Positions 3,152 through 28,669 of a DNA stretch of 64,000 nucleotides are shown here, piece by piece. The notes below the pieces were generated by a model. That model did no database searches and had not been told where the DNA came from. It saw only the letters and a program-made list of their open reading frames with translations. Positions within the stretch are counted from its first letter, which is position 1, and each line of letters starts with the position of its first letter. A program made the position numbers and the translations under genes. Source of the DNA: Paracoccaceae bacterium (GTDB taxonomy: Bacteria; Pseudomonadota; Alphaproteobacteria; Rhodobacterales; Rhodobacteraceae). The stretch spans positions 62,001 to 126,000 of the forward strand of contig JALHOL010000009.1 of assembly GCA_022843025.1 (NCBI GenBank), read 5' to 3'.

Positions 3152-3168
3152 AAGCGGGGCGCAGGGGC

Positions 3169-5120: not shown

Positions 5121-5224
5121 GTTCGAATCCCCATCCAACTTTGCCCAGCGCCTGCTGCCTCTGCATGCCCGCGCGTTCCAATGGAATGGTGGCGGGCCGT
5201 GTCGATGCGAACGCTCAAGAAGCG

Positions 5225-5247: not shown

Positions 5248-5362
5248 TTGCGTTGGGGGCGCGAAGTTCAATACCCCGCCGCGCATTTTTGGGTGCAACA
5301 TTTTGCTTTGTGCAGACCCCAAGCGACCTTACAACCTTAATGATTGTGTTTTTGGGGGTCAG

Positions 5363-7101: not shown

Positions 7102-7228
7102 TCCACGGATCAAGGCTGGGGGCACAGCAGAGGTATCAGGCCGGGCGCGACAAGCGCTGCTGTCTGGACAAGCAGCGCGGAGTCGGCCAAGCAATTAGGT
7201 AACGAGTGTAAATATCACGCAGGACATC

Positions 7229-11936: not shown

Positions 11937-13745
11937 TCAGGCCCCTACGGCCATGGCGCGGAAGGTTGCGTTGTCCTGCACCAGTTCGTCATAGGTGCCG
12001 GAGGCCGCGATGCCGCCTTTTTCCATCAGGAAGATACGGTCGCAGCCGCGCACCGTTGTCAGCCGGTGCGCGATCAGGATGATGGTCGTATCGGCCCGGA
12101 TGTTCTGGACCGCCTCCATCACCACGCGTTCGGTGATGTTGTCGAGCGCGCTGGTCGCTTCGTCCATGATCAGCAGCGAGGGCGAACGATAGAGCGCGCG
12201 GGCGATGCCGATCCGCTGGCGCTGGCCACCCGACAGGCGGACGCCGCGTTCGCCGACAAGGGTGTCATAGCCCTGCGCCAGTTCGGTGGTCACGAAATCA
12301 TGCAAGGCCGCGGCGCGGGCGGCACGTTCCAGAGCCGCGCGGTCAATGGCTTCTTTCGGCACGCCAAAGGCGATGTTGGCGGCGATGGTGTCATCGGTCA
12401 GGAAGATCGACTGCGGCACATAGCCAAGCGTCTTTTGCCAGGCTCGCAGGTTATCGGGTGTGACAAGCGTGCCATCGACGCGGATTTCGCCGGAATCGGG
12501 GGTGAGCAGGCCAAGGATCAGGTCGATCAGCGTGGTTTTGCCAGCCCCGGTGCCACCGACAATGCCAATGGTGGTGCGGGCGGGGATGGTCAGGTCGAGC
12601 CCGTTCAGCGCCTGACGTTCGGCGGAGGCGTATTTGAACGAGACCTTGGACAGATCCAGTTTTTCGTCAAGACGCAGGGTTTGAGTTGCCGGAACGGCCG
12701 ATGTGCCGCCCGTACCGGCCGCGTGGTAATCGGCCGCGATGGAATGAAGAACCGGCGTGCCGCCGCGGATGGTCGCAAGGCCATGGTAGATTTGCTGCAA
12801 CGCGGGCAGCAAGCGCATGACGGAAAAGGCAAAGATGCCCAGCGTCGGAACGATGCCCGCGATGTTGCCATCGCTGCGGAACAGGAGCAGCAGCACCAGC
12901 GCGAGCAGGCCGCCGAAGGTGATTGCTTCAAGAAAATAGCGCGGGAGTTCGGAAATGATCCCCACGCGGGTTGCCGCCTGCGCGCTGAGATGCGTCGCTT
13001 TGGCGAATTGGGCGCTGTAGACGGGTTCAAGGTTGAGCAGTTTCACATCCTTGATGCCACCCGTGGCTTCCTGGGCAATGCGGTAGCGCATTTCCAGGGT
13101 GGTCATGATGTCCTTTCCGCTTTGGTGCAGCTTGCCGCGCATCCGCAGATAGATCAGCGCATAGCTGCCCCCCAACAGGACAGACGACAGAAGCGTGACC
13201 TGCGGGTCCACAACCATGAGAAAGCCGATGGTTGCCAGCACGAGGATGATGTTCGAGGTGAGCCTGAGCAACGGTGTGATGACGCGCACGACCAGACCGT
13301 CGACTTCGGTTAGGACGTTCTTGCTTGTTTCCGAGCTGTTGCGTTCCAGAAACCACGCATAGGGTTGGCTGAGGTAGCGGCCAAGAAGGCGGGTCGCGAT
13401 GGCCGCACCGCGCATATAGCCAAAGCGGACGATGGTGTAATTGCCGATGGCCTTGATCGCGAGGCCGAAGATGACGACCCCGGTCACCAGCAAGGCAAGG
13501 GCGACCTGAAAGCTGAAATTGCTTTGGAAATCGAACAGGCCATAGGCCCAGGACAACCACGGATTTGTCGTAATGCTTTCCGGATTTGCCAGCACGTTCA
13601 GCAGGATAAGCACCGAGGAAACGCCTGCCACCTCGATCAGGGCGACGACGACCATCAGGACGGTCAAAAACAGGAAGCGCAGCCGTTCCCGGGCATCGAG
13701 AAGGGAGAATACCTGGCGGAAGACGTCAATCACGGAGCTCTCCAT
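11937..13745 (-). CDS. ABC exporter, fused membrane and ATPase domains (PglK/MsbA type)
   Basis: 602 residues: an ABC type-1 transmembrane domain (about 1-330) and a C-terminal ATPase with Walker A GGTGAGKTTL, signature LSGGQRQRIGIARAL, Walker B LLIMDEATSALD and the switch histidine in LIAHRLTT. It should act as a homodimer in the inner membrane. In glycan loci such half-transporters (PglK-like) flip lipid-linked oligosaccharides; MsbA-like export of a lipid or of the NRPS/PKS product is the alternative. No Wzx-type flippase is seen in the window, so this is the best local candidate for that step. It follows the four-gene synthase operon on the same strand after 168 bp. Confidence 0.85.
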   Translation of the reverse strand: MESSVIDVFRQVFSLLDARERLRFLFLTVLMVVVALIEVAGVSSVLILLNVLANPESITTNPWLSWAYGLFDFQSNFSFQVALALLVTGVVIFGLAIKAIGNYTIVRFGYMRGAAIATRLLGRYLSQPYAWFLERNSSETSKNVLTEVDGLVVRVITPLLRLTSNIILVLATIGFLMVVDPQVTLLSSVLLGGSYALIYLRMRGKLHQSGKDIMTTLEMRYRIAQEATGGIKDVKLLNLEPVYSAQFAKATHLSAQAATRVGIISELPRYFLEAITFGGLLALVLLLLFRSDGNIAGIVPTLGIFAFSVMRLLPALQQIYHGLATIRGGTPVLHSIAADYHAAGTGGTSAVPATQTLRLDEKLDLSKVSFKYASAERQALNGLDLTIPARTTIGIVGGTGAGKTTLIDLILGLLTPDSGEIRVDGTLVTPDNLRAWQKTLGYVPQSIFLTDDTIAANIAFGVPKEAIDRAALERAARAAALHDFVTTELAQGYDTLVGERGVRLSGGQRQRIGIARALYRSPSLLIMDEATSALDNITERVVMEAVQNIRADTTIILIAHRLTTVRGCDRIFLMEKGGIAASGTYDELVQDNATFRAMAVGA

Positions 13746-13913: not shown

Positions 13914-14873
13914 TCAGGATGGCGGATTGGCCCCTACACCCGTTTCCGGGATGCTGCGGACGACTCGCCATGCCACATCCTGCATCAGGCGGGCGGTTTC
14001 CGGGTCTGGCGCGGTTGCGGGGGTGCCGTCGGCGCGCAGCAACTGATGCGAGAGGCCTTCGGGGCTGGAGCCGTAGAGAACGGCGTAGTGCACCAGCGCG
14101 ACAAAGTAGTTGCCCATGTCATTGAGGTGGATCTGGTCGGAAAACAGATCGTTGCGGTCGCGCACGTTGCCGACGCCACCGCGGTCTTCGATCTCACGCA
14201 CCAAGGCGGCCATGGCCTGACCGGCGGGGATCAGGTGGATCCGGGTGCCTTCGGGCAGGTTGTAGAGTGCGGGGCGCAGGATGCCGGCCTCCCAGTGGAT
14301 TGGCAGGTCGGCATCAAGCCGTTCAAGCCAGCCTTCGGGATCATCCAGAGGGTGCCATGTTTCATAGAGATAAACGCGGGTGTCCGGGCGGGCCGCCTTG
14401 GCTGCTTCGGTGAACTGCGCGAGGTAGCGGCCGCTATCGAAATAGCGCAGCGCATCGCGGATTTCGACCATTTCGGTCAGGACGATGGCATCGTAATCGC
14501 CGCTTGAGACAGCCTCACGCGCGTCGCGGTAGCGCGGATGGGCGTTTTCCTGTTCAAAGCCGTTCACGGGTTCATCGCCCCAGTGAGATTTCAGCGTGGC
14601 GCCCCAGCCGAGCTGGCTTTCATAGCCGTGGCCGTCGCCGGCAAGCTGGGCCAGCATGGCGGGCATGTCGCGGTTCACGAGGCTGTGGCCGATGTGATAG
14701 ACGCGCAGCGCGCTGTCCGGCGCAGGCACGGGTTCGGCATAAAGCGAGGACATCTGTTGATCGGTCAGGCCCGGCAAGACAGGGACCGGGGTCGGGGCCA
14801 GACGCCACCAGACAGCCCCGGCGACCAGAGCGACAATCGCGGCGCTGACGGCAAAAAAACCTTTGCGTTTCAT
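13914..14873 (-). CDS. Secreted or anchored SGNH/GDSL-like protein, paralogue of 4191-5120
   Basis: 319 residues with an N-terminal membrane segment (KRKGFFAVSAAIVALVAG) that may be an uncleaved anchor or signal peptide. VYHIGHSLVNRDM supplies the GHSL nucleophile block (Ser64), and DQIHLNDMGNYFVA supplies the C-terminal DxxH pair. The same two blocks and similar spacing occur in the protein at 4191-5120, so the two are paralogues. Its ATG overlaps the stop of the phosphopantetheinyl transferase gene (ATGA), making it the fourth gene of the PKS/NRPS operon. It may esterify or hydrolyse the assembly-line product, or transfer it to a glycan, in the periplasm; this is inference. Confidence 0.75.
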   Translation of the reverse strand: MKRKGFFAVSAAIVALVAGAVWWRLAPTPVPVLPGLTDQQMSSLYAEPVPAPDSALRVYHIGHSLVNRDMPAMLAQLAGDGHGYESQLGWGATLKSHWGDEPVNGFEQENAHPRYRDAREAVSSGDYDAIVLTEMVEIRDALRYFDSGRYLAQFTEAAKAARPDTRVYLYETWHPLDDPEGWLERLDADLPIHWEAGILRPALYNLPEGTRIHLIPAGQAMAALVREIEDRGGVGNVRDRNDLFSDQIHLNDMGNYFVALVHYAVLYGSSPEGLSHQLLRADGTPATAPDPETARLMQDVAWRVVRSIPETGVGANPPS

Positions 14874-15523
14874 AATGATACTCCCGTGAAGATCAGGCCC
14901 TGTGACCGCAGGAGGCGGCCGTGGATGTCTTGCCCTGCGGCAAATCCGCCAACGGGGCGGCAGAACCGTGCACTGAACCCTGTCTCTGTCAGCCGCACGG
15001 TCATCGCATCAAAACCGATCAACGTGCCGGTCAGCGGAAACTGTGCCTTGTAGGCGGCTTCCTTGGCCGAAAAGACCTGACGGACATAGTGGCCCCGGTC
15101 CAAGATTGGAAGGGCCGCCAGTTCATCCGGGCCGCAGATTACGGGCCAGAGATCGGGGTCCAGCCCTTCATCCGGTTCGACATCCAGCCCCAGCGGCGCG
15201 CCCCGGCGGAGGGCTGCCACAGCAATGCCTGCGGAATGGGAGATGGAGCCGGAGATGCCCACAGGCCAGAGCGGCAGGCGGTTCGGGCTGGCGGGGATGG
15301 CGACGGCAGGATGGCCAAGTGCGCGCAGGGCCTGCCGTGCGGCGGCGCGGCCTGCGGCAAATTCGGCCTGACGGGAGGGCACGGCGCGGGCCACGGCTGT
15401 GGCCTCATCCGGGTGGGCGGGTTCGTCATTTTCGGCAATCACCACGGCCGCCACGGCAACGCCGGGCGGAAACAGCCCGGCAAGGGCTGCTTCCAGCGGG
15501 GGGATCACCTGACCGGACTGCAT
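14870..15523 (-). CDS. 4'-phosphopantetheinyl transferase (Sfp/EntD family)
   Basis: 217 residues with the family blocks LGLDVEPDEG (magnesium and CoA-binding aspartate/glutamate) and FSAKEAAYKAQF (the WxxKEA-type block). It also has an EntD-like N-terminal section with RQAEFAAGRAAARQAL. The enzyme moves phosphopantetheine from CoA to the conserved serine of carrier domains, here most likely Ser1438 of the NRPS and Ser1762 of the PKS encoded just upstream in the operon. It starts 2 bp after the NRPS stop, and its own stop overlaps the start of the SGNH-type gene, so coupling is tight on both sides. Confidence 0.92.
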   Translation of the reverse strand: MQSGQVIPPLEAALAGLFPPGVAVAAVVIAENDEPAHPDEATAVARAVPSRQAEFAAGRAAARQALRALGHPAVAIPASPNRLPLWPVGISGSISHSAGIAVAALRRGAPLGLDVEPDEGLDPDLWPVICGPDELAALPILDRGHYVRQVFSAKEAAYKAQFPLTGTLIGFDAMTVRLTETGFSARFCRPVGGFAAGQDIHGRLLRSQGLIFTGVSL

Positions 15524-15525
15524 GG

Positions 15526-18500
15526 TCAGGTTTGGGCTTTTTCCCGCGCCTCGCGCATGGCGCGGCGGCGGGCCATGGCATCGTTGCGGTTCGCATCATC
15601 GCCCGCGGGGAAGGGGCTGGCAGCGATCGGTTGCACGGCCTGTTGTGCCGGGGCGGCTGCCTGCCCTTGCCCCAGATGGGCCGCAAGCGCGGACAGCACC
15701 GGGAAGCGGAAGATATCGGTGATGGCAAGCCGGGTGGAGTTCAGCCGTGTCTTGAGTTCGCGATGCGCCTGAACGGCCAGCAGGGAATGGCCGCCGAGGT
15801 TGAAGAAATTGTCCGACCGTCCCACGGAGGGGATACCGAGCACCTTGGCCCAGACTTCGGCAATCGCGGCCTCGACACTGTCGGTGGGGGCGGCGACAGC
15901 AGCGGTCGTGGGCACCTCGATCCGGCGCGCTTGGGGGGCGGGCAGGGCCTTGCGATCCACCTTGCGGTTCGGGGTCAGGGGGAAGGCGTCGAGCGCCACG
16001 ATATGGGCAGGGACCATGATTTCGGGCAGCGTTTCACCAAGCAGGGCGCGCAGTCGGGATTCATCGACCGGGCCGTCATGGGTGACATAGGCCACAAGGC
16101 GCACATCGCCGGGGATGTCTTCGCGCGGGATGACGACGGCCTGACGGATGCCGGGGGCAGCGTCGAGCGCGGCTTCGATTTCGCCCAGTTCGATGCGATG
16201 TCCCCGGATCTTGACCTGATGATCGGCGCGGCCAAGGAAATCAAGCCGCCCATCGGCGCGCTGGCGGACCAGATCGCCGGTGCGATACATCCGGCCGTGA
16301 CCGGCGAAGGGATCGGGGTGGAAGCGGTCGGCGGTCAGATCGTCGCGCTGGAAGTAACCCGGTGCCACGCCTTCGCCGCCGATCCACAATTCGCCTTCGT
16401 TGCCTGCGGGAACCGGTGCGCGGTTTTCATCCAGCACATAGAGCGCCGTGTTGGCGATGGGTTGGCCGATGTTCACGGTGCCATCGGACCCGGTGGTTGC
16501 TTCGACCGAAGACCAGATGGTGGTTTCCGTGGGGCCATACATGTTCAGCACCGGGCCACCGATAAGGGTGGAGAGGTCCGAGGCGAGTTTGCCGGGAAGC
16601 GCCTCGCCGCCCACCATCAGGCGTTTGATGCCCTTGAGTGCAGTGCGTGCGCCGTCATCTTCGGCCAGCATCCGCGCCATGGACGGGGTGCATTGCAGGT
16701 GGGTTACGCGGTGGGCGCGGATCAGGCCCGCCAGTGAACCATCCGCCTCGACCGCGCCATTGGCGCGGCGCAGCACTTCGGCCAACGGCGTGAGCGCCGC
16801 GAGCACCTTGGCCGACGGGATGCCATAGTCTATCAGGCAGGCGACTTCGTCGACGTCGATGGCCTTGACCTCTTCCACCCGTGTCACGGCATCTTCGATA
16901 GTGCCGAACAGGCCGGACTCTTCGAAATAGCGCTGGAAGGCGAAGTCGAGGATGCCTTCGAGTTCCTCGGCATCCAGACTGCCGAGGTCGATCTCCATTG
17001 GATTGGCCATGCCCTGCGGTTTCTTGAAGGCGGGGAAGGCCCAGGCGTATTGCTTGATCAGCGCGGCGGCGCTGCGCAGGTAATCCTTCATCGGGCCGCG
17101 CGCGGTTTCGCGAGCGGTTTCGCGATCAGCGGCCAGATAGGTGTGCAGCATCAGCGTCACCTTGAAGGCGGCGGGGTCATGCCCAGCCTCGGCCAGCGCG
17201 GCGCGGTAGATTTTGACCTTTTCGCCCACCTCGGCCACCGACTGGCCCAGAAGGTGCGTCAGGACGTTTGCGCCCAGCCGCCCTGCATCACGCCAGGTTT
17301 CCGGGTTGCCCGCCGTGGTGACCCAGATCGGCAGTTCTTTTGAAACCGGCCGGGGCTGGGTGGTGACGGCAAAGGGGGTGCCATCCTTGCGCGGGAAATC
17401 CACCGCCTCGCCGCGCCAGAGGCGGCGCAGGGTGGTGATCGTATCCAGCATCGCCTGACGGTTGGCAGGCGGCGTGTTTTCCGGACGCAGGACGAAATCG
17501 TCAGGCTGCCAGCCAGAGGCGATGGCAAGGCCTGCGCGGCCATTGGTCAGGTTGTCGATGATCGCCCATTCTTCGGCGATGCGGGCGGGGTGGTGCAGTG
17601 GCGCGACGCAGCTGCCCGCGCGCACGCCGATATTGCGGGTGACGGCAGCAACAGCCGCCCCGGTGACCGACGGGTTCGGATAGGGGCCGCCAAAGGCGTG
17701 GAAGTGGCGTTCCGGCGTCCAGACGGCGGAAAAGCCGTGGCTGTCGGCGAATTTCGCGCCTTCGAGGAGGAGTTCATATTTCTTGGGGCCAGCGCCATCA
17801 TCATTGCCCCAGTAGAACAGGGAAAATTCGATGGGGCGGGTGGAGACGGTGGTCACATTCGCGCCCGACGGGCTGAGCCGTGCGGCATCGTCGGCCACGA
17901 CGACGGTAAATCCGCGTGCGAGCGTCCAGAACAGTTCAAGTACCGAGATGTCAAAGGACATGGAGGTAACAGCCAGCCACGTACCGGGATCAGCCCCCAC
18001 TGCATCATCCATGCCAGTGAAGAAGTTGATCACGTTGCGATGGCTGATCATCACGCCCTTGGGCCGCCCGGTGGAGCCAGAGGTGTAGATGACATAGGCA
18101 AGGTCTTCGGCCTGCGGTCCATCTGCCGGGGGCGTGTCGGATGCGGCGGACAGGCGCGGATCGGTATCAAGGATCAGCTTGGCCGGACCTTCGGGCAGGG
18201 AGGGGGCGACTGAGGATTCGGTGACGATCACGGGCGCGCCGGAATCTTCGGCGTACAGCGCCAGACGGTCGGCGGGATAGGCCGGGTCCATGGGCACATA
18301 GGCCGCACCGGCCATCTGGATGCCAAGGGCGCCGGCGATCATGTCTGCCCCGCGATGGAGCGACAGGCCCACCAGCGTGCCGCGTGCCACGCCCATGCTG
18401 CGCAGGACGTTGGCGATGCGGGCGGCGCGCTTGGCTAGATCGGTATAGCTGAGGCGGGTGGTGCCTGCGATGACGGCGGTATGGTCGGGCTTTGCCGTGG

Positions 18501-20097
18501 CGGTGCGCAGCATCGCGGCGGGGATTGTGAGCGACCGGTCATAATCGCGCGCGGTGGCGGCCAGCGCGCCGGACAGGCGGGCGGTCTCATCGCTGGTCAG
18601 TGCGCTTAGGGTGCTGAGGTCGGCATCCGGGCCCGCCGCGGCGATGGCCGCGACAAGGCGGGTGATGCGGTCGGCCAGCGCCTGCGCATCGGCCTGAAGC
18701 AGGCGGGTGGCGTCAAACCAGAGGCGCGGCGACTGATTGACGGTCAGGGTGACGGCGCTGCCGGCGAGCGGGGTGTCGCTGTCGCTTAGCGCGATGGCGG
18801 GCGGGGTTAGGGTGGCAAGGCCGGGTTCGCGCAGGGCGAGATCTGCTGCGATGCCCGTGGCGGCGCGCGCCGTGTCCATCGCGCGCGTGACCGACGCAGC
18901 GGCCTGCGCGGCGGTGCCAGAGGCCGACAGGCGCAGCGGCGCCCAAGGCAGCACATAGCCGGGCGCAGCAGAGGGGCCGGTGGAGAAGGCGACATCACCC
19001 ATGCTGCGCCCGGTGGCGCGCAGAAGGGCGAGGGCGATGGCCGAAGCCTCTGTCGCAACGGAAAGGGGAAGCGACTGCCAGTCAGGCTTCGCCGTGGCCG
19101 GGGCGCCGATGGCGATGGGATCGGCAGACAGCAGAAGAGCGCGGGTCTGGACCTCTGCCTCGGCGACGGGGGCGAGAGCGCGGGTCAGGCGGGCGGCTTC
19201 GTCCGCGCTGAGCGGGGCGAGATGGGTGATGCCCAGCGTGCTGGGGCAGATGGCGGTGCCATCCATGGCGCGCAGGCCCGCAAGGCGCACCGCGCCGTTG
19301 GCGCAGGCGACGACGAGGCCGGCCTGTGTGGCCTCCAGCACCGTGCCGGGGGCGGCGTGACCGGGTTCAACCTCGGCCATGGTGACAGCGAGGATGCGGC
19401 CGGCAGCGTCGATCTTGGGCAGGGAGAGAGGGTTGCGATAACCGCTGTGATCCAGCGCGCGGACCATGCGGGCCACGGCATCAGCCGATTGGGTGAAATC
19501 CAGCCGCGCGGCGGCGGCGGGGCGGTCAGCGCGGCGATAGACATGGCGGGTGCCTGCGCCCTGCGGGCGGCGCGGGTGGCCACCTGCGGCCAGCGCGGTG
19601 ATCACCTCGGGGAAGCTGTCGACGGCGGCGTCAAAGCAGCGGGCGTTCAGGGTGAAGGCGGTGTCGTCAGCGGCGATGTCGATGTCGCGGGTGGCCAGAA
19701 CCTCGCCTTCATCAATGCCGCTGGTCATCAGATGCCATGTGATCGCGTGGCGCGGCTCGCCCGCCAGAAGCGCCCAGACCGGGGCATTCAGGCCCGCATA
19801 GCCGGGCAGCGGGCCATCGTGGAAGTTCACGCCGCCTTGCGTGGCGCGGGCCAGCACGGCATCGGGAACAAGCGACAGGTTGGCGATAGAGAGAACCCAG
19901 TCGACCGTCAGATCGGCGGTGCGGGCGGGCAGGCCCGCGCCGGGGGCCAGCACCGGCAAGCCACGACCCGCCGCCCATTCGGCGACCCGCGCTTCACGCG
20001 TGACGACCGCGGCGATGCGGTGGCCCCGGTCAAGCCAGAGGTTGCCACATTCGGCGGTCAGGCTTTCATTGCCGATGAGGAGTGCAGAAAGGGTCAT
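15526..20097 (-). CDS. Hybrid NRPS: formyltransferase / C-like remnant / A domain with inserted luciferase-like monooxygenase / PCP
   Basis: 1523 residues. Residues 1-280 match methionyl-tRNA formyltransferase, with NFHDGPLPGYAG (Asn91, His93) and GIDEGEVL (Asp129) as the catalytic Asn-His-Asp set. Residues ~300-520 look like the end of a condensation domain, but no HHxxxDG motif is visible. The adenylation domain starts ~525, with A3 YTSGSTGRPKGV (671) and A4 FDISVLELFW (715). It is then interrupted (~745-1110) by an FMN-dependent luciferase-like monooxygenase of the MupA/Atu3671 type. It resumes with A5 NMYGPTETTI, A7 YRTGDL, A8 and A10 NRKVDRKAL. A PCP follows (FFNLGGHSLL, Ser1438). There is no thioesterase. 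The start is the ATG at 20097, 13 bp after the PKS stop. Likely role: load, formylate and oxidise an amino acid, then pass it to the PKS. Confidence 0.9.
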   Translation of the reverse strand: MTLSALLIGNESLTAECGNLWLDRGHRIAAVVTREARVAEWAAGRGLPVLAPGAGLPARTADLTVDWVLSIANLSLVPDAVLARATQGGVNFHDGPLPGYAGLNAPVWALLAGEPRHAITWHLMTSGIDEGEVLATRDIDIAADDTAFTLNARCFDAAVDSFPEVITALAAGGHPRRPQGAGTRHVYRRADRPAAAARLDFTQSADAVARMVRALDHSGYRNPLSLPKIDAAGRILAVTMAEVEPGHAAPGTVLEATQAGLVVACANGAVRLAGLRAMDGTAICPSTLGITHLAPLSADEAARLTRALAPVAEAEVQTRALLLSADPIAIGAPATAKPDWQSLPLSVATEASAIALALLRATGRSMGDVAFSTGPSAAPGYVLPWAPLRLSASGTAAQAAASVTRAMDTARAATGIAADLALREPGLATLTPPAIALSDSDTPLAGSAVTLTVNQSPRLWFDATRLLQADAQALADRITRLVAAIAAAGPDADLSTLSALTSDETARLSGALAATARDYDRSLTIPAAMLRTATAKPDHTAVIAGTTRLSYTDLAKRAARIANVLRSMGVARGTLVGLSLHRGADMIAGALGIQMAGAAYVPMDPAYPADRLALYAEDSGAPVIVTESSVAPSLPEGPAKLILDTDPRLSAASDTPPADGPQAEDLAYVIYTSGSTGRPKGVMISHRNVINFFTGMDDAVGADPGTWLAVTSMSFDISVLELFWTLARGFTVVVADDAARLSPSGANVTTVSTRPIEFSLFYWGNDDGAGPKKYELLLEGAKFADSHGFSAVWTPERHFHAFGGPYPNPSVTGAAVAAVTRNIGVRAGSCVAPLHHPARIAEEWAIIDNLTNGRAGLAIASGWQPDDFVLRPENTPPANRQAMLDTITTLRRLWRGEAVDFPRKDGTPFAVTTQPRPVSKELPIWVTTAGNPETWRDAGRLGANVLTHLLGQSVAEVGEKVKIYRAALAEAGHDPAAFKVTLMLHTYLAADRETARETARGPMKDYLRSAAALIKQYAWAFPAFKKPQGMANPMEIDLGSLDAEELEGILDFAFQRYFEESGLFGTIEDAVTRVEEVKAIDVDEVACLIDYGIPSAKVLAALTPLAEVLRRANGAVEADGSLAGLIRAHRVTHLQCTPSMARMLAEDDGARTALKGIKRLMVGGEALPGKLASDLSTLIGGPVLNMYGPTETTIWSSVEATTGSDGTVNIGQPIANTALYVLDENRAPVPAGNEGELWIGGEGVAPGYFQRDDLTADRFHPDPFAGHGRMYRTGDLVRQRADGRLDFLGRADHQVKIRGHRIELGEIEAALDAAPGIRQAVVIPREDIPGDVRLVAYVTHDGPVDESRLRALLGETLPEIMVPAHIVALDAFPLTPNRKVDRKALPAPQARRIEVPTTAAVAAPTDSVEAAIAEVWAKVLGIPSVGRSDNFFNLGGHSLLAVQAHRELKTRLNSTRLAITDIFRFPVLSALAAHLGQGQAAAPAQQAVQPIAASPFPAGDDANRNDAMARRRAMREAREKAQT

Positions 20098-20110
20098 TGA
20101 TCGTGTCCTG

Positions 20111-23100
20111 TCATTCGGCAGCAAGTTTGCGGGCTTCTGGTGCGACGGGGTGGCTGGCTTCGGCCTCGGCCAGCGCGGCGCGCAGCCGGGCGGCAAGCAC
20201 CCGGACGTTGGGTTCGAGCACCATGGAATCGTGATCGCCCGGCACTTCGACCACTTCGATCTGGGGTGCGTAGGGGGTCCATTCATTATCGGCGAAGACG
20301 TATTCGCGGCCACTGTTCACCCAGTTGCCGCCCGTCACCTTCCAGCGCCGGTCCAGCGGCGGACGGTAGAGGATCACGCGGCCCCCGGTCCAACCCTCGA
20401 GCGTGTAGACGCCGATGGCATGGCGGAAGGCGGCCTCGATCGAGGCGTTGTGGAAGGACGGAACCGTCGTGTCAGGTTCGCCCGCGGCGATGGCCTTGCG
20501 CGAACGTTCCCATTCGATGCGGCGGCGCGCCCAATCGGCAAGGAAGCGGACGCCGCCCTTGCGCAGTTCGGCGCCCTTGATCATCGCGCGATCAGCGCGG
20601 CTGAGCGGTTTGGGCACAGGCATCGGCGTATCGAGAAGGACAATGATCGCCACATCTTCGCCCGCTGCGCGCAACTGGCGGCCCATTTCCCAAGCGGTCA
20701 GACCGCCACCCGAGAAGCCGCCCAGCAGATAGGGGCCGTGCGGTTGGATCTGGCGCAGTTCTTCGATGCAACTGGTGGCGGCCTCTTCCAGCGTGTCATG
20801 CGGGGCGGCGTCGCCGAACAGGCCGCGCGCCTGCAACCCGTAGAAGGGCCGGTCGCTGCCCACGAGATGGGCCAGATGGCGCAGGTTCAGCACGTTGCCG
20901 AACATCCCTGCCACAAGGAAGAAGGGCGTGCGCGGGCCGCCATCGCGGGCATGCATGGGCACCAGATGGGTGAATTTCGGCCCGGCCGGGTTGGCCTTGG
21001 CGGCGGGATCGGCGGCCTTTTCATCCTCGGGGCCCAACTGTTCCGCGATCAGGGCGGCGCAGCGGGCGATCGTCGGTGCCTCGAACAGGACCGAGATCGG
21101 GAAATCGAGCTTCCACTGGCGGCGGATCATCGCGAAGAGGCGCACGGCGATCAGGGAATGGCCGCCGAGGGCGAAGAAATCATCCTCGACCCCGACTTCG
21201 GCCACGCCCAGAAGCTCGGACCAGAAGCCCACGAGCGTGCGTTCCACCTCGGTTCTGGGGGCGACATAGGCGCTTTCCAGATCGGGGCGGGCAAAGCCCG
21301 GGCCTTCGGCATCCGCAGGGCGTTCGCTGGCCTCGGCCTGACGCACCAAAGCGTGCAGATCAAGCGAGGAGACCAGCACCTGTGCCTGATCCGCGGCAAG
21401 GGCGCGCATGAAGGCTTCGGCCCCTTCGGCCGGACGGATACCGTCTTCCAGCGCCTGCATCATCCGCGCCTCGGCTGGCGAGGCGGAGCGGGCGGCGGAT
21501 TCGTCGGCGATGACCTCGGCCGGGGTGGCCGGGGCGGGGCGGGCAAGGACCAGCGCCGCGCTGACCGAACGGAAGGCGATGCCGGAGACCTCGACCAGGA
21601 TACGCCCTGACGGATCGGTCAGGGTGACGTCAAAGCTGGCGTTTTCCGGGCTGGGTGTGCCCTTGATGCGGACCCATGACCGGATTTCAGACGGCAGTGG
21701 CGCGAAGACGCGGACCGTGCCTGAGGTGACGGGAACCCAGATTTCGCCTTCTGGCGCTTCGGGCAGCAGGGCGAGGCCCCAGCCGGTGCCGATGTCATAA
21801 AGCGCGGGATGGAGCGCCGAGGTTTCGGCGTCCTTCACAGCATGGGCGGGAAGGGAGAGGGTCGCCAGACCCTCGGCTTCGCCAAGGGCCGTCTGGCGCA
21901 GCACCTGCCAGCGCGGGCCAAAGGCCACGCGGTCTTCTTGTGCGCTGGGCAGGGCAACGCCGTCGCGCGCGCTTTGCCGGTTTGCACAGCGGGCGGCAAT
22001 CGGGGCAAGGTCAAGCGTGCCGGGGCTGTCGGGCAGGGTTGCAACCTCGGCCTCTACGGCCAGCGCCCAGCCTGCGGTTTCGCGGATACGCGCCTCGATC
22101 CGGTGAGAGCCATCGCGCTGACGGGTCAGCGTGACGCGCAGATCGCGGGGCGCATCAGATTCAAGCCGGATCGGCCGCAGGACGGTGAGACCGGTAAGTG
22201 TAAAGGCGGGCGCTGCACCAAGGGCAGAAAGCGCCTCGGCGGTGATTTCGGGCCATGCGGCGCCGGGCAGGATGGCGGTGCCATCCTTCAGGCGGTGGTC
22301 ATCCATCACCCATTGCGCGGTAGAGAGCGTGGTCGAGAAGCGCGCGCCGGTATCCGTGCGGGCCATGCGTTCCAGGATTGGCAGGCCGGGAAGCGGCGCG
22401 TCGGCGGCGGCATCGCCCTGACGGCGGGCGGCGGCGTCGGCGGCCATGCCGATACCGGACCAGATGCCCCAGTCGATGGCGGTGACCTTGGTCTTGCCCC
22501 CCGCGCGGTGCCGCGCGAAGGCGTTGAGGTATTCGTTGGCTGCCACATAATCGGATTGCCCCGCAGGGGCGATCACGGTGGAGGTGGACGAGAACAGCAC
22601 CAGATGCGCAAGGCTGCCATCGGGAAGCAGGCTGTCGAGCAGTTTGGTGCCATGGACCTTGGGCGACAGGACGGATTCGGCAGCGCCGGGATCCTTGCCC
22701 AGAAGGGGCGCGTCATCGACCATGCCCGCGGCATGGACCAGGCCATGGATCGGGCCAAGCTCGGCCCGGACACGATCCAGCGCCGTGCGCATATCTTCGG
22801 GGTTGCAGACATCAGCGGCCAGCGCCAGCACCGGGCCAAGCCGTTCCAGCCGTTTCAGGACGCCCGCACGGGCGCTGCCTGCGGCGGGCAGGCTGCGGCC
22901 GATCAGGGCGACCTTGGCCCCGTTTTCGCGCATCAGCCGTTCGGCCACGGTCACACCGATGCCGCCAAGGCCGCCCGTGATGACCCAGACCGAACCTTGC
23001 GGAATATCGACCGCTTCGGGCAGGGGCGCGGGGGCGAGACGGGTTTCAAAGCGGCGGCTGCCGCGCAGGGCGGCGACGGTGTTCGCCGGAGAGGCGAGCA

Positions 23101-26100
23101 TTTCTTCGAGCACGAGGTTGACGGTTTCCGCCGGGATCGCATGGCGCGCTTCGGGCAGGGCCACATCAAGCAACGAAGCGGTCAGACCCGGCAATTCGCG
23201 CGGCATCACGCGGACTGGGCCGGAGACGGCGGATTTTTCGGGGTAGGGCAGCGCCTCCTTGCGGACCTGCGCGGCACCTGACGTGATGACGGTCAGATGC
23301 GGCAGGGGCTTCAGACCCGCTTCTCCCATGGCCTGGCCAAGGAAGAACAGGCTCCAGAACCCCTGTTCCAGATTGCGGTGGAAGAAGCTGGAGCCGGGGC
23401 GGAAGGTTTCCGCATCTGTCACCAGCCAGAAATGGGCGATGCGGGCGGGGGTCAGGTCACGCAGGGCGAGATCGGCGATCAGCGCCTCATACCCTTCGCG
23501 CCCGTGTTCGGGGGCGAGAGTGTAGGTTTCATCCCCTGTGCGGGCAAAGGCATCGCCGGCATGAACGGTGATGACGCGATGGCCGCCCGCGCGCAAGCGC
23601 TGCACGGCGGCGCGGGCAAGCCCGGCCTCATCGGCAAAGACCAACCATGTCAGGGGTGCGCCCAGTTCGCTTTCCACATCGACAAGGCAGTCGGACGGGG
23701 CCGCGCGCCAGGCGAGGCGATAGCCGAAATCCACCAGATTGCGGTGGCGGATGGGAAGGATGTCAGCCTCTTGCACGGCGGCGGGAAGGCTGGGTTCGAC
23801 GAAGTAGCGCGAGCGCTGGAAAGGATAGGTCGGCAGCGGCACGCGGCGGCGTTTGGCATCGCCCCACAGTTGCGACCAGTCGGTCGCCGCGCCGCAGGCC
23901 CAAAGGCGGCCCAGCGTGGCGATGAAATGGCGGTCATCGGACACGGTATCATCGGGGTGGCGCAGGCTGGCGGGGACGGGCTGGCCGCCCATCGCGCCAT
24001 TGGCCTGTGCCAGCGTTGCAAGCGCGCGGCCGGGGCCGACCTCAAGATACACGCGGTCGGCCTTTTCGCGCAGTTTCGCGATGCCATCGGCAAAACGGAC
24101 GGTGCCGCGAAGGTGAGCGACCCAGTAATCCGGGCTGGTGGCCTGTTCCGCCGTGAGCGGCTGGCCGGTGCGGTTGGAGATGATCGGGATCTGCGGGGCT
24201 GACAGGGTCATGCCTGCCAGATGCGCCCGGAAATCGGCGAGGATCGATTCCAGCATCCGGCTATGGGCCGCGATGTTGATGGCGATGCGGGTGGTCTCTA
24301 TCCCATCGGCGCGCAGGCGTTCGGCCAGCGATTGCAGACCGGCATCCGAGCCGGACACGACCGTCAGTTCGGGCGCATTGACCGAGGCGATGTCGAGATC
24401 ACCAAGATAGGGGGCGAGCGCGGATTCCGACAGCGGCACCGACAGCATCCCGCCAGCGGGGACAGTGTCGAACAGTTTGCCGCGCAGGTGGACAAGGCCG
24501 ATCACACCTTCCAGCGTCATGACCCCCGCGATGCAGGCGGCGGCATTCTCGCCCATGGAATGGCCGATCAGGGCGGCGGGGCGCACGCCCCAGCTTTCCC
24601 ACAGCCGCGCCAGCGCGATTTCGACGATCAGGATCAGCGGCAGTTGCAGCGAAGGGCGGCGCAGGGTTTCGCCGGCCTGTGCCTCGGCCCCCGGTTCGGG
24701 CAGCCATAGGGCGCGGATATCCTCGGTCGTCAGCTTGCCCAGGATGGCGAGGCCACGGTCCATCCATTCGGCAAAGACCGGTTCGGTTTCATAGAGGTCG
24801 CGCGCCATATTGGGGTATTGCGCACCGCCGCCGGGGAACATGAAGACCACATCGGGCGTATCGCCCACGCGGCGCTGGGTAAAGACGCGGCGGGGATCGG
24901 CGGCCTCGAGCATCCGGGCCGCCTCTTCGTGGCTGGCTGCCACCAGCACGCGGCGGTGTTCAAAGGCGCGGCGGCCTTCCTTGAGCGTATGGGCCACATC
25001 GGCAAGCGGCTGTTCGGGATGGGCGCGCAGATGGGCGGCAAGACGCTGTGACGCCTCGTTCAGCGCGGTCTGGCTGCGGGCGGACAGGGTGATGAGCTGG
25101 AAGGGCCAGTCGCTGCCTTCAGAGACGGCCAGTTCGGGTGCTTCCTCCAGCACGACATGGGCATTTGTGCCGCCCACGCCCAGCGAGTTGATGCCCGCTC
25201 GGCGCGGCCCCTTGCGGCGGGGCCAGTCGGTCAGACGGTCGTTCACACGGAAGGGGCTGTTGTCGAAATCAATCGCCGGATTGGGGGATTCGAAGTTCAG
25301 GCTGGGCGGCATCTGGCGATGGTGCAGCGAAAGCGCAGCCTTGATCAGGCTGGCCACGCCTGCGGCGGTGTCGAGATGGCCGATATTGGTTTTCACGCTG
25401 CCGATGCGGGCGAATCCCGTGTCGGATGTGGTGCGGCGGAAGGCTTCGGTCAGGGCGGCAACTTCGATCGGGTCGCCCAGATAGGTGCCGGTGCCGTGGC
25501 ATTCGATATAGTCAACGCTGTCGGCGGGAACGCCCGCAACCTGCATCGCTTCGGCAATGCAGGCGGCCTGGCCTTCGACAGAAGGCGCAAGGTAGCCTGC
25601 CTTGGCCGCGCCGTCGTTGTTCACGGCGCTCCCCCGGATCACGGCCCAGATATGATCGCCGTCTGCAATGGCATCCGACAGGCGGCGCAGCACGACCGTG
25701 CCCGCGCCCGAACCAAAGACCGTGCCCTGCCCGCGATGATCGAAGGCATGGCAGACGCCATCGGGCGAAAGCACCTCGCCCTCTTTGTAAATATAGCCCC
25801 GGTTCTGCGGCAGTTCGATGGTCACGCCGCCCGCAAGCGCCATGTCGCATTCGCCGTTCAGCAGCGCCTGCACCGCATAGTGAACCGCAACGAGCGAGGT
25901 GGAACAGGCGGTCTGGACCGAAAGCGACGGCCCTTTCAGATCGAAGATATGGCTGACGCGGGTGGACAGGAAATCCTTGTCGTTCCCGGTATGGCGCAGC
26001 AGGAACATCCCGGTGCTGTCGACCAGCGCGCGGTTGCTGCACAGGTTGAAATAGAAATAGCTGCCCATGCCGCAGCCGGCGAAGACGCCGATGCGCCCCT

Positions 26101-26440
26101 TGAAGGTTTCGGGCGGGTGACCTGCGGTTTCGAGCGCTTCCCACGCCACTTCGAGGAAGTGCCGATGCTGCGGATCAAGGATCGCGGCCTCTTTCGGTGA
26201 AAAGCCGAAGAATTCGGCATCGAACCGGTCGAACCCGTCCAGTGGGGCCGCAAAGGGAACATAAGCGGGATTCTTGAGCATCGCCGGGCTTTCGCCCGCA
26301 CCGATCAGTTCCTCTTCCGTGAGTCGGCGGACAGCGGAACGGCCTTCGCGCAGATTGGTCCAGTAGCTGCCGACATCCGGCGCCCCCGGCAAATGCGCGG
26401 CCATCCCCACGATGGCGATGTGGGTGTCATCCGTATCCAT
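20111..26440 (-). CDS. Type I PKS module KS-AT-KR-DH-ACP-TE
   Basis: 2109 residues. Ketosynthase 5-430 with TACSTSL (Cys179), HGTGTYLGD (His315) and KTNIGHLD (His355). Acyltransferase ~530-830 with GHSMGE (Ser628) and a non-diagnostic NIAAHS specificity motif. Ketoreductase ~905-1335 with TGGLGGIG and the FSSTS...SDYVAAN catalytic region. Dehydratase-like domain ~1360-1630 with His1382 and Asp1549. ACP ~1725-1800 with LGGHSL (Ser1762). Thioesterase ~1830-2109 with GGFSGGG (Ser1910) and GDHDSM (His2070). Domain order KR before DH is unusual. It starts at the ATG at 26440 (AAGG site), not at longer upstream options. It heads the operon with the NRPS, PPTase and SGNH-type genes. It lacks a loading domain, so the NRPS probably supplies the starter. 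Confidence 0.92.
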   Translation of the reverse strand: MDTDDTHIAIVGMAAHLPGAPDVGSYWTNLREGRSAVRRLTEEELIGAGESPAMLKNPAYVPFAAPLDGFDRFDAEFFGFSPKEAAILDPQHRHFLEVAWEALETAGHPPETFKGRIGVFAGCGMGSYFYFNLCSNRALVDSTGMFLLRHTGNDKDFLSTRVSHIFDLKGPSLSVQTACSTSLVAVHYAVQALLNGECDMALAGGVTIELPQNRGYIYKEGEVLSPDGVCHAFDHRGQGTVFGSGAGTVVLRRLSDAIADGDHIWAVIRGSAVNNDGAAKAGYLAPSVEGQAACIAEAMQVAGVPADSVDYIECHGTGTYLGDPIEVAALTEAFRRTTSDTGFARIGSVKTNIGHLDTAAGVASLIKAALSLHHRQMPPSLNFESPNPAIDFDNSPFRVNDRLTDWPRRKGPRRAGINSLGVGGTNAHVVLEEAPELAVSEGSDWPFQLITLSARSQTALNEASQRLAAHLRAHPEQPLADVAHTLKEGRRAFEHRRVLVAASHEEAARMLEAADPRRVFTQRRVGDTPDVVFMFPGGGAQYPNMARDLYETEPVFAEWMDRGLAILGKLTTEDIRALWLPEPGAEAQAGETLRRPSLQLPLILIVEIALARLWESWGVRPAALIGHSMGENAAACIAGVMTLEGVIGLVHLRGKLFDTVPAGGMLSVPLSESALAPYLGDLDIASVNAPELTVVSGSDAGLQSLAERLRADGIETTRIAINIAAHSRMLESILADFRAHLAGMTLSAPQIPIISNRTGQPLTAEQATSPDYWVAHLRGTVRFADGIAKLREKADRVYLEVGPGRALATLAQANGAMGGQPVPASLRHPDDTVSDDRHFIATLGRLWACGAATDWSQLWGDAKRRRVPLPTYPFQRSRYFVEPSLPAAVQEADILPIRHRNLVDFGYRLAWRAAPSDCLVDVESELGAPLTWLVFADEAGLARAAVQRLRAGGHRVITVHAGDAFARTGDETYTLAPEHGREGYEALIADLALRDLTPARIAHFWLVTDAETFRPGSSFFHRNLEQGFWSLFFLGQAMGEAGLKPLPHLTVITSGAAQVRKEALPYPEKSAVSGPVRVMPRELPGLTASLLDVALPEARHAIPAETVNLVLEEMLASPANTVAALRGSRRFETRLAPAPLPEAVDIPQGSVWVITGGLGGIGVTVAERLMRENGAKVALIGRSLPAAGSARAGVLKRLERLGPVLALAADVCNPEDMRTALDRVRAELGPIHGLVHAAGMVDDAPLLGKDPGAAESVLSPKVHGTKLLDSLLPDGSLAHLVLFSSTSTVIAPAGQSDYVAANEYLNAFARHRAGGKTKVTAIDWGIWSGIGMAADAAARRQGDAAADAPLPGLPILERMARTDTGARFSTTLSTAQWVMDDHRLKDGTAILPGAAWPEITAEALSALGAAPAFTLTGLTVLRPIRLESDAPRDLRVTLTRQRDGSHRIEARIRETAGWALAVEAEVATLPDSPGTLDLAPIAARCANRQSARDGVALPSAQEDRVAFGPRWQVLRQTALGEAEGLATLSLPAHAVKDAETSALHPALYDIGTGWGLALLPEAPEGEIWVPVTSGTVRVFAPLPSEIRSWVRIKGTPSPENASFDVTLTDPSGRILVEVSGIAFRSVSAALVLARPAPATPAEVIADESAARSASPAEARMMQALEDGIRPAEGAEAFMRALAADQAQVLVSSLDLHALVRQAEASERPADAEGPGFARPDLESAYVAPRTEVERTLVGFWSELLGVAEVGVEDDFFALGGHSLIAVRLFAMIRRQWKLDFPISVLFEAPTIARCAALIAEQLGPEDEKAADPAAKANPAGPKFTHLVPMHARDGGPRTPFFLVAGMFGNVLNLRHLAHLVGSDRPFYGLQARGLFGDAAPHDTLEEAATSCIEELRQIQPHGPYLLGGFSGGGLTAWEMGRQLRAAGEDVAIIVLLDTPMPVPKPLSRADRAMIKGAELRKGGVRFLADWARRRIEWERSRKAIAAGEPDTTVPSFHNASIEAAFRHAIGVYTLEGWTGGRVILYRPPLDRRWKVTGGNWVNSGREYVFADNEWTPYAPQIEVVEVPGDHDSMVLEPNVRVLAARLRAALAEAEASHPVAPEARKLAAE

Positions 26441-26942: not shown

Positions 26943-27545
26943 ATGATGAAATTTGTGCAAATGATGCTGGCGGCGCTGATGGCACTGCCATTTCTTGCTG
27001 TGGATGCCGCCGCCCAGGATTATCGCCTGCAGCGCGGGGATACCGTTCAGATTGAAGTGCTTGAGGATTCCACCCTGAGCCGATCGACGCTGGTGCTGCC
27101 GGATGGGCAGATCACCGTGCCGCAAGTTGGCACCGTTCGCGCCGCAGGCCGCACGCTGGAGCAGTTGCAGGCAGATGTTGCGCAACGCCTTGCACCCAGT
27201 TTTGCAACGCCGCCGACGGTGTTCGTCACGCTGTCCTCGCTTGCGCCGATCATCGACCGGCCCGAACGCACCATCGATATCTTTGTCATCGGCGCTGCCA
27301 ATGCACCGGGTCGCGTGCAGATCCCGCCGGGATCGACTCTGTTGCAGGCGCTGAGCGCTGCAGGCGGCCTGTCACCGTTCGCGGCAGACAAGCGGGTGCA
27401 ACTGCGCCGTGTCGACAAGGCCGGAAATGAAAAGATCTACCGTGTTGATTACGATGCGATCGAACGTGGCGTGTCGAACGTGGGCACGACCCGCGTCGTT
27501 GATGGCGATGTGATCGTCATTCCGCAGCGCAAACTGTTCGAATAA
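26943..27545 (+). CDS. Polysaccharide export protein (Poly_export/SLBB, Wza-like, short form)
   Basis: 200 residues with a signal peptide ending near AAAQDYRL (type I cleavage; no lipobox cysteine). A Poly_export domain follows (YRLQRGDTVQIEVLED through FVTLSS), then one SLBB-type beta-grasp domain (GAANAPGRVQIPPGSTLLQ). Wza of E. coli is about 380 residues, a lipoprotein with more SLBB repeats and a C-terminal transmembrane helix. This is therefore a minimal form, as seen in many alphaproteobacterial EPS loci. It should form or gate the periplasmic/outer-membrane channel for glycan export. The beta-barrel gene follows 8 bp downstream, which suggests a joint secretion unit. Confidence 0.88.
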   Translation: MMKFVQMMLAALMALPFLAVDAAAQDYRLQRGDTVQIEVLEDSTLSRSTLVLPDGQITVPQVGTVRAAGRTLEQLQADVAQRLAPSFATPPTVFVTLSSLAPIIDRPERTIDIFVIGAANAPGRVQIPPGSTLLQALSAAGGLSPFAADKRVQLRRVDKAGNEKIYRVDYDAIERGVSNVGTTRVVDGDVIVIPQRKLFE

Positions 27546-27553
27546 GCGCGGGG

Positions 27554-28669
27554 ATGCGGGATATGGGGTTGATCCGGGGTGCATGCCTTGCCCTTGCGGC
27601 AGGAACTGCCGCGACGGGCGTCGCTGCGCAGGACGTGGGTGGCGTGCGCCAGACCTTTGATGTCGAGCAGCGCTTTGAATTCGGGCGCAACCTCGATCTG
27701 GCGACCCCGGCAGAAGGATCGAGCAGCGTCGCCGCGACGGTGCTGAGCTATGGTCTGTTCAGTGAAACACCGCTGGATCGGCTGGCCTTTACCGCCTCTG
27801 GCGCGCTGGTGATCGAAAACTCGCCCGATACGGCCGGAACGGAAGTGGATTTCGGCCGCCCCGAAGTGGGTTTCCTGTATGTCCGCGAAGTGCCTGATGC
27901 GCTGTTTTCGGTCGCGCTGCGCTATGTCAGCGATGATGTAAGCGCGCTGGCCGATGATCTGACCGTTGCAGACGCCACCGGGACGGAAATCGATTACGGC
28001 GTGATTCTGCGCTATGAGGCGTTGCGGAATTCGCCGGCCAGCATCTTCGTCGAGGCGACATTCGACGCCACCGAATACGAGGATACAATCGACCCGACGC
28101 TGATCGAAAGCGATACCTACGGGCTGACGGCCGGTACTCGGCTGCGCTTTTCCGAAGTTATGGATGGTGTGTTCAGCCTTGGCGTGACGCGGGAAGATGA
28201 TGCCGCCGGCGTTGTGGCTGATACGTTCATCATCCGTGCCGGCGTCGAGTATGACATGATCGACGGCTTTGCCGCGGTCTTCCTGACGCGCGAAGAAGGC
28301 GACATCGAAGACAGCACATCGCTTGAGTTTGATTACACGCAGGATCTGCCCGTCGGCGCGCTGAGCCTGGGCGTGACCATCGCGCAGACCTTCGATTCCG
28401 GCGTGGGCGAGCGGACGGACGAAACGGATATCGAGATCGGCTGGACACAGGCCATCAACGACGCTTCGGCCATAGCGGTGAGCCTGTCCTGGGCGCAGAG
28501 CGACGCGCCGTCTGAGCAGATTACGGAAACCGAACTGGGCGCGACCTACAGCTATGCCTTGACCGAGGAAACCAGCCTCGACGTCGGCGCAAGTTTCCGT
28601 GAGCGCGATGATGCGGGCGGGCGGGCTTCGTCGCCGCTGGTGTTCCTGGCGCTTGGCCGCAGCTTCTGA
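27554..28669 (+). CDS. Outer-membrane beta-barrel protein of EPS locus
   Basis: 371 residues with a signal peptide (LALAAGTAATGVAAQD) and a series of alternating hydrophobic strands. The final residues LVFLALGRSF end in the phenylalanine typical of barrels inserted by the BAM machinery. Composition is acidic and glycine/threonine rich, as in outer-membrane proteins of the BBP2 group often found next to polysaccharide export genes. The start codon at 27554 is 8 bp after the Wza-like stop, and the gene ends 27 bp before a strong terminator. It may act as an outer-membrane pore or scaffold for the secreted polymer; that role is inferred from context. Confidence 0.75.
   Translation: MRDMGLIRGACLALAAGTAATGVAAQDVGGVRQTFDVEQRFEFGRNLDLATPAEGSSSVAATVLSYGLFSETPLDRLAFTASGALVIENSPDTAGTEVDFGRPEVGFLYVREVPDALFSVALRYVSDDVSALADDLTVADATGTEIDYGVILRYEALRNSPASIFVEATFDATEYEDTIDPTLIESDTYGLTAGTRLRFSEVMDGVFSLGVTREDDAAGVVADTFIIRAGVEYDMIDGFAAVFLTREEGDIEDSTSLEFDYTQDLPVGALSLGVTIAQTFDSGVGERTDETDIEIGWTQAINDASAIAVSLSWAQSDAPSEQITETELGATYSYALTEETSLDVGASFRERDDAGGRASSPLVFLALGRSF

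Follow-up and report, generated by a model that had tools for sequence, protein, structure and literature searches.

An NRPS-PKS operon linked to polysaccharide genes in Rhodobacterales is the probable acyl-group factory of a Wzx/Wzy-type exopolysaccharide locus

The stretch of DNA analyzed here (the window, 64,000 nucleotides of contig JALHOL010000009.1 from a Paracoccaceae bacterium, assembly GCA_022843025.1) carries an operon that encodes a type I polyketide synthase (PKS) of one module, a nonribosomal peptide synthetase (NRPS), a 4'-phosphopantetheinyl transferase (PPTase), and an SGNH-type protein. In our assessment, the operon probably supplies a Wzx/Wzy-type exopolysaccharide locus with an acyl group, a unit made of N-formylglycine plus acetate that would be attached to the polymer. 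The order of the domains, the intact motifs, the near-invariant substrate code, and the linkage to glycan genes, which extends across many genera and into a second phylum, can be seen directly. The NRPS-PKS pair is a real, widespread, and conserved unit, the genetics of which point to modification of a polysaccharide, and decoration of a polymer is probably its role, rather than the production of a free, drug-like molecule.

All four genes lie on the reverse strand. The PKS gene (20111-26440) encodes, according to Pfam, a ketosynthase (KS, residues 7-384), an acyltransferase (AT, 532-804), a ketoreductase (KR, 1151-1328), a dehydratase (DH, 1355-1629, positioned after KR), an acyl carrier protein (ACP, 1735-1798), and a thioesterase (TE, from residue 1857), with no match to an enoylreductase (ER) domain. 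It is separated by 13 bp (the PKS stop at 20111, the NRPS ATG at 20097) from the gene of the NRPS initiation module (15526-20097), which is followed after a 2-bp gap by the PPTase gene (14870-15523, Pfam 4PPT_N and ACPS) and, through an ATGA overlap, by a gene for an SGNH/DUF4886-like esterase or acyltransferase with a hydrophobic N-terminal helix (13914-14873, assigned by structure prediction and fold search). The genome holds one full-length copy of the NRPS-PKS operon. The coordinates and spacings agree with a preliminary description of this DNA as a tightly packed four-gene operon, and the domain matches in Pfam and NCBIfam bear out its naming of the PKS, the formylating NRPS, and the PPTase. 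Its view of the operon as self-sufficient is not supported, as the conserved unit exceeds four genes and the gene of a GT2 glycosyltransferase belongs inside the operon in most relatives.

In the NRPS, the Pfam and NCBIfam matches comprise the N- and C-terminal parts of a formyltransferase (Formyl_trans), an adenylation (A) domain split by a Bac_luciferase domain, and a peptidyl carrier protein (PCP). In the stretch linking the formyltransferase to the A domain, a structure model and a fold search show the C-terminal half of a condensation domain, continuous with A, and no HHxxxD motif is present in the sequence of the window NRPS; together, these features fit an initiation module, and the best-scoring solved structure for the module is that of LgrA. 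The embedded domain, inserted between motifs A4 and A5, is a luciferase-like monooxygenase (LLM) of the kind dependent on flavin mononucleotide. It is a clear member of TIGR04020, the family of NRPS-embedded monooxygenases of the MupA/Atu3671 type (479 bits vs a curated cut-off of 244), and its best match among solved structures is PuwE (6ket).

The ten specificity positions of the A domain read, by alignment, DILQMGMIWK, to be compared with DILQLGLIWK, which we take to be the code for glycine. Among the 83 aligned NRPS sequences (83 NRPS and 79 PKS sequences were left after length and score filters), code positions 235, 236, 239, 278, 301, 322, 331, and 517 are identical throughout, position 330 is Ile in 82 with a single Val, and position 299 is Met or Leu in 81, with a single Ala and a single Phe. 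The N-x-H and Asp residues of the formyltransferase are kept in 82 of the same sequences, the remaining one being gapped. One initiation protein combines a formyltransferase, a Gly-type A domain, and a PCP, and the A domain, the code of which is glycine-like and nearly invariant, is predicted to be glycine-specific, a reading that leans on the code table. A code of the type DILQxGM[IV]W was also found in 12 out of 13 A domains with an embedded monooxygenase from plasmid loci, which span Alphaproteobacteria, Betaproteobacteria, Actinomycetota, Cyanobacteriota, and Deinococcota; thus, the embedded monooxygenase goes with glycine-type A domains. The sole exception, from a Streptomyces, reads DMVQLGMVWK, and its NRPS gene is followed by a flavin reductase gene, the expected partner for an oxygenase using reduced flavin. 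In the PKS, the active-site motifs of KS, AT, KR, DH (His and Asp), ACP, and TE are kept in the 79 sequences, with KS gapped in one of them.

The association with glycan genes was followed in two sets of loci. A scan of a genome collection gave 281 relatives, of which the best 80 were kept as named loci, a set that leans to close relatives and has flanks of up to 10 kb. Their titles are all of the Rhodobacterales type, except for that of L062 (Nocardioides marinus), which carries a Rhodobacterales-like copy of the operon and is probably misnamed or mixed. Forty further loci were hand-picked as the better full-length matches from the 57 NRPS-matching genomes of an even draw of the family; these stretches are 19 kb long (one is 12.6 kb), with distant genes undercounted, and three of them duplicate the DNA of a named locus, so that the two sets are not independent. 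The hidden Markov models (HMMs) of the island families were built from the window, the stretch just upstream of it (L009), the 80 named loci, and 5 plasmid loci, and counts made with them are not blind. An island-type glycosyltransferase gene is present in 78 of the 80 named loci, at least two such genes in 71 of them, and one or more in all 40 further loci; if the operon's own GT2 is set aside, the numbers become 71 of 80 and 30 of 40. Of the two named loci lacking any island glycosyltransferase, L015 has genes for chain-length and kinase proteins and L025 has an export gene. As to the other families, 79 of the 80 named loci have the PKS (the exception, L081, is a stretch of 4.9 kb), 75 the PPTase, and 51 an SGNH gene; a chain-length protein is encoded in 52, WecG in 48, a flippase in 46, and Wzy in 43. 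The PKS, NRPS, and GT2 genes are all found in each of the 40 further loci, with the GT2 gene strictly between the other two in all of them, as it is in 71 of the 79 named loci that have both PKS and NRPS. The eight exceptions (L010-L015, L022, and L025) are among the closest relatives of the window, in which the homologue of this gene, GT2mid, is located at 8991-9974. The link of the operon product to a glycan, raised in the preliminary description, is thereby supported, and homologous operons are not routinely found away from glycan genes; one relative that does lie apart from them, in Aliiroseovarius, is discussed below.

A similar picture emerges from the distribution across genomes. Among 149 genomes of the family, including that of the window, the NRPS is present in 57 and a Wzy-like polymerase in 59, with both in 54, the NRPS alone in 3, and Wzy alone in 5 (Fisher p about 8e-31, uncorrected for kinship). 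In 44 of the 54 double-positive genomes the two genes lie within 25 kb of each other. In a class-level draw of 190 genomes, the NRPS was found in three only, namely the window's own genome and two of its family. Mirror-tree correlations with the NRPS, uncorrected for the species tree and given no weight here, were 0.80 for Wzy (43 loci), 0.85 for the chain-length protein (52 loci), 0.58 for GT2mid (78 loci), and 0.43 for another GT2 (52 loci).

Relatives outside the family were sought in plasmid records, 615 of which had a match; 30 were listed and 16 examined, three of them, lacking a gene table, being read by HMM. Annotated polysaccharide loci with PKS and NRPS are carried by plasmids of Ruegeria, Parasedimentitalea, Paracoccus, Aminobacter, and Shinella. 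A PPTase accompanies the pair in the polysaccharide loci of Aminobacter, Shinella, and Neorhizobium, and in Neorhizobium and Rhizobium the pair adjoins flippase and WecG-type genes as detected by HMM. The orientation of the PKS is reversed in Aminobacter, Shinella, Neorhizobium, and Rhizobium, and the link to glycan genes has therefore survived rearrangement. On the plasmid of Rhizobium sp. BG6 (L141:9644-16191), the PKS is read as two overlapping frames and may be broken or affected by a sequencing error. In Deinococcus actinosclerus (L148:15021-46199), the formyltransferase is encoded by a gene of its own, which lies amid capsule genes together with those of an A-LLM-PCP protein and a PKS; the neighbors include PGA_cap, Polysacc_synt_2, sugar transferases, a gene with the annotation CapK, and a FemAB/GNAT-type protein. 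The PKS of this species has the order KS-AT-KR-DH-ACP-C, in which a terminal condensation (C) domain that keeps HHxxxD replaces TE. Since the bonds made by condensation domains are amides or esters, the release step in Deinococcus is naturally read as a transfer onto an acceptor.

From these features we infer all of the chemical steps described here, as well as the attachment to the glycan. Glycine, as indicated by the code, would be adenylated and loaded on the PCP, after which the N-terminal domain would formylate its amine with formyl-tetrahydrofolate, as suggested by the intact catalytic residues and by precedent. The embedded flavin monooxygenase would hydroxylate the PCP-bound glycine, probably on its alpha carbon, which is the least certain of the steps; MtaG reportedly carries out an amide-forming oxidation of glycine. 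The PKS would then accept the formylglycyl unit, add one malonate, reduce the keto group, and possibly dehydrate the product. With a KR, an apparently intact DH, and one extension, the predicted acyl group is 4-formamido-but-2-enoyl or, if the DH is idle, 4-formamido-3-hydroxybutanoyl, in either case carrying one more oxygen should the oxygenase be active. The calculated residue masses are +111.032 for the butenoyl and +129.043 for the hydroxybutanoyl form, each raised by 15.995 on hydroxylation. The acceptor to which the TE may transfer this acyl unit would belong to the polysaccharide pathway and is likeliest a sugar precursor, acylated on an amino or hydroxyl group, and the GT2 enzyme of the operon would build the acylated precursor into the repeat unit; these two enzymes are the best candidates for joining the acyl unit to the sugar. 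The repeat unit would be flipped by Wzx or, here, perhaps by the ABC exporter, after which the Wzy-like protein would polymerize it for export through the Wza-like channel. The domain content conforms to the order of steps given in the preliminary description, which placed the NRPS first, then one reducing PKS module, and then TE. We can speculate further, as a possibility that we regard as doubtful, that there is a class of assembly-line-modified polysaccharides in Rhodobacterales, Hyphomicrobiales, and Deinococcus (with a C domain for TE), in which the Gly-derived formamido acyl unit, possibly hydroxylated next to the nitrogen, is itself glycosylated by the operon's GT2 and so enters the repeat unit as a non-sugar component.

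Several observations weigh against attachment of the acyl unit to a polysaccharide. Any enzyme named for the attachment is a candidate, the TE could simply hydrolyze its substrate, and the conserved genes of the island include no conspicuous family of dedicated acyltransferases other than TE and SGNH. The NRPS and the Wzy-like gene are on different contigs in 8 of the 54 double-positive genomes and are 178 and 420 kb apart on one contig in two more; 3 of the 57 genomes with the NRPS have no Wzy-like match and 5 of the 59 with Wzy have no NRPS, and the Fisher test takes no account of kinship. In the PKS of Deinococcus, DH is matched by Pfam, yet the pattern for its histidine motif found nothing. 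The Aliiroseovarius relative adjoins nos and exosortase genes, with no annotated glycan genes close by; its plasmid (L094:18495-32234) carries a formyltransferase-A-LLM NRPS followed by a 9.2-kb NRPS/PKS near the nos genes and exosortase XrtD, and represents a different assembly line. A Methylobacterium relative lies near weak GT4 and chain-length matches only, and a Streptomyces relative, with no formyltransferase in the stretch fetched, is found among amino-acid genes. More generally, no formyltransferase was detected in the fetched stretches, some of them short, of two Streptomyces, a Nostoc, and a Burkholderia relative, the neighbors of which are other NRPS, PKS, or amino-acid genes.

The related LLM domains in NRPSs of such other settings are also in keeping with a free secreted small metabolite (an antibiotic, signal, or siderophore), the genes of which would merely lie within the glycan island and use its exporters. 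The assembly line ends in a TE and has its own PPTase, an MFS transporter gene is located at 30980-32119, and genome surveys, in their available parts, class such clusters as drug-like (PMC10584327, PMC8273931, PMC5583230). This explanation, which the preliminary description held to be equally likely, is now clearly the weaker one, and we consider it unlikely: it does not account for the glycosyltransferase genes linked to the operon in both sets of loci, even when the operon's own GT2 is left out, for the position of that GT2 within the operon, or for the single polymerase family that co-occurs in 54 of 57 NRPS genomes, and a presence in 57 of 149 family genomes was judged broad for a specialized metabolite. 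A siderophore was considered separately and rejected, there being no TonB-type receptor among the window neighbors scanned and the conserved context being that of glycan synthesis; Atu3671 itself presumably lies in a siderophore cluster.

Two other explanations keep the operon within polysaccharide synthesis. An iterative PKS could make a lipid that anchors or carries the polymer, a role that has reportedly been proposed for enzymes of the RkpA/WcbR type. Type I PKSs are known in capsule clusters (wcbR/rkpA, PMC3908369, from the available part of that report), and both KR and DH are found in the window enzyme. Against this, the enzyme has no match to ER, its NRPS partner seems to load formylated glycine, which is a polar starter, and it ends in a TE, so a lipid product appears very improbable. 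Alternatively, the acyl unit might be joined to the sugar chain after export, with the SGNH protein as the acyltransferase. The gene is directly downstream, and residues Gly62, Ser64, Asp246, and His249 are invariant across 33 aligned sequences, as would suit a catalytic Ser, Asp, and His. Although no Pfam or NCBIfam family matches this protein, its predicted structure (pLDDT 93.8) resembles SGNH hydrolases, in keeping with the assignment in the preliminary description. The best fold match is the DUF4886 protein 4i8i (E 1e-6, TM 0.52 by query length), and a CE2 enzyme, sialate O-acetylesterases, and a putative GDSL lipase also score better than the weak match to 6se1, the periplasmic domain of a Salmonella lipopolysaccharide acetyltransferase (E 1.6e-3). 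Moreover, no membrane carrier of the acyl donor is evident, and an SGNH gene turned up, within the flanks fetched, in no more than 51 of the 80 named loci, which does not uphold the protein as an obligatory link to the glycan; we consider acylation by SGNH after export quite unlikely. Two further proteins are SGNH-like in whole or in part. The same island encodes another protein of the SGNH type, which has diverged from the first to 27-28% identity (4191-5243, reverse strand, start uncertain). A protein of ~834 residues that follows the SGNH gene (L036:18348-20852; also L009:11645-13633), with relatives in 43 of the 80 named loci, joins an SGNH-like part to a C-terminal part, the motifs of which, by eye, resemble those of clan GH-A glycosidases. 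A relative of the latter part, with an RTX repeat match, is found upstream of the island of the window.

The polysaccharide island surrounds the operon on both sides. On its left are, on the forward strand, a GT4-type glycosyltransferase gene (43-852, with a start to the left of the open reading frame shown), another GT4 gene (921-2174), and genes for a polysaccharide deacetylase (2171-3151), an NAD-dependent epimerase/dehydratase (3148-4098), a methyltransferase (5141-6247, Methyltransf_11, start uncertain), a glycosyltransferase of the WecG/TagA/CpsF family (7229-8020), and a polytopic Wzy-like polymerase (10284-11876, start uncertain). Interspersed on the reverse strand are three GT2 genes (6244-7194, start uncertain; 8025-8981; and GT2mid, 8991-9974, the relatives of which mostly lie between PKS and NRPS) and the gene of an ABC half-exporter (11937-13745, ABC_membrane and ABC_tran). 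On the right, a Wza-like export protein (26943-27545, Poly_export and SLBB) is followed by a porin-like outer-membrane beta-barrel (27554-28669), both on the forward strand. The glycosyltransferases, the ABC exporter, and the Wza-like exporter named in the preliminary description are thus all recovered by Pfam, together with the Poly_export/SLBB match. There are 13 matches to PF00535 in the 3.9-Mb genome, three of which lie within 3.3 kb in the island. Just upstream of the window (L009) are genes for a WbaP-like sugar transferase, an XrtA-like ATPase, a chain-length protein, and a tyrosine kinase. A polyprenyl sugar transferase, glycosyltransferases, a polymerase, a chain-length protein with a kinase, and an outer-membrane export protein are therefore present, and the island, judged from its gene content, is a nearly complete Wzx/Wzy-type locus. 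The Wzy-like protein of the window itself has no Pfam match; its assignment is based, besides co-occurrence, on a relative (L034:2859-4373) that matches Wzy_C below the cut-off.

No island-type Wzx was found in the window or in L009, and the ABC half-exporter may stand in as the flippase of lipid-linked oligosaccharides in the lineage of the window. The exporter was rejected as a conserved partner of the operon, close homologues (E<=1e-150) being present in 9 of 149 genomes and coinciding with the NRPS only in the window's own. In one of them (G077, contig C11:5801-11312), the homologue is ~2 kb from a Wzy-like homologue with no NRPS match, and in that neighborhood it may serve the glycan rather than an NRPS-PKS. 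Models of the XrtA/PEP-CTERM polysaccharide system (ATPase, chain-length, kinase, and export) are among the best matches, all below the NCBIfam cut-offs, and HfsE and HfsH models match far below theirs, so neither that system nor a holdfast was retained as an assignment. The islands of relatives include other genes of note. On a Ruegeria plasmid, a row near the NRPS-PKS genes (L090:28317-32231) consists of a UbiA prenyltransferase, GtrA, an FAD oxidoreductase, and an SDR, which we take to resemble the polyprenyl-phosphate arabinose pathway, and in two Paracoccus islands (L092:665-4543 and L139:1-1620) a second NRPS-type gene lies directly 5' of a WecG-type glycosyltransferase gene.

Comparison of the operon with known systems shows that each of its parts has a counterpart. 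LgrA, of linear gramicidin synthetase, also begins with a formyltransferase, an A domain, and a PCP; presumably, it has no PKS partner and no embedded monooxygenase, and its product is a free peptide. Closer in architecture are the loading modules OzmO, CongA, and PtxE (of oxazolomycin, conglobatin, and phthoxazolin), in which a formyltransferase-A(Gly)-PCP start feeds a PKS as it does here; formylglycine loading followed by malonate extension has been proposed for conglobatin and phthoxazolin (PMC4504003 and PMC5764310, in their available parts). Those systems yield free compounds and have an ATP-pyrophosphatase-type cyclase gene (OzmP/CongE/PtxD) beside the loading gene (PMC4504003, PMC5764310). 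No match to this cyclase family was found among the window neighbors scanned, the rest of the genome being unsearched, and the window differs further in the monooxygenase carried by its A domain, in the KR and DH of the first PKS module, and in its location in a polysaccharide locus. For the oxygenase domain of PuwE, the predicted substrate is a beta-amino fatty acyl chain and the predicted outcome a 2-hydroxy acyl chain (PMC4219810, available part), whereas the hosts of window-type domains carry the Gly code in 12 of 13 plasmid loci. WcbR and RkpA, which we liken to the PKS of the window by setting and not by sequence, are dedicated type I PKSs within capsule synthesis and export loci, and the available part of the report mentions no NRPS partner (PMC3908369), whereas in the window the NRPS supplies the starter. 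Capsule PKSs and formylglycine loading are therefore already known, and it is their joining in a polysaccharide locus that is new, so far as our searches show; no publication linking the NRPS-PKS pair to a polysaccharide was found in a search that largely leaves aside subscription papers.

The operon itself appears to have been recorded before under another heading. In Roseibaca, a 4,527-nt NRPS gene and a 6,333-nt PKS gene, with one locus number between them, were compared with argyrin patents, and NRPS-like/T1PKS hybrids were the commonest cluster of unknown kind, in 18 of 37 species of the family (PMC10584327). The tabulated Roseibaca cluster looks like the operon of the window in gene sizes and order; that all 18 are the same cluster goes beyond the data. 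A hybrid cluster is listed on the 225-kb plasmid of Paracoccus marcusii CP157, with antimicrobials assumed (PMC8273931); from the species, host, and size, this plasmid is apparently the record behind one plasmid match of our scan. Daep_00048 (NRPS) and Daep_00050 (PKS) were filed under secondary metabolism (PMC3910554). In the available text of these reports, the words polysaccharide and glycosyltransferase are absent from PMC10584327, as is the word polysaccharide from PMC8273931. Judging from gene sizes and order, we infer that the Roseibaca, CP157, and Daep clusters are the same operon.

Genome surveys count hybrid NRPS-PKS clusters as possible sources of antibiotics, and some of these predictions would have been misfiled should the role of the operon lie in a surface polysaccharide. 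The chemistry is predicted and testable, as the acyl unit gives exact masses for testing. If the proposed role is true, a polymer encoded in more than one-third of the genomes drawn from the family (57 of 149) would bear a chemical group that has so far, as our searches show, been unsought.

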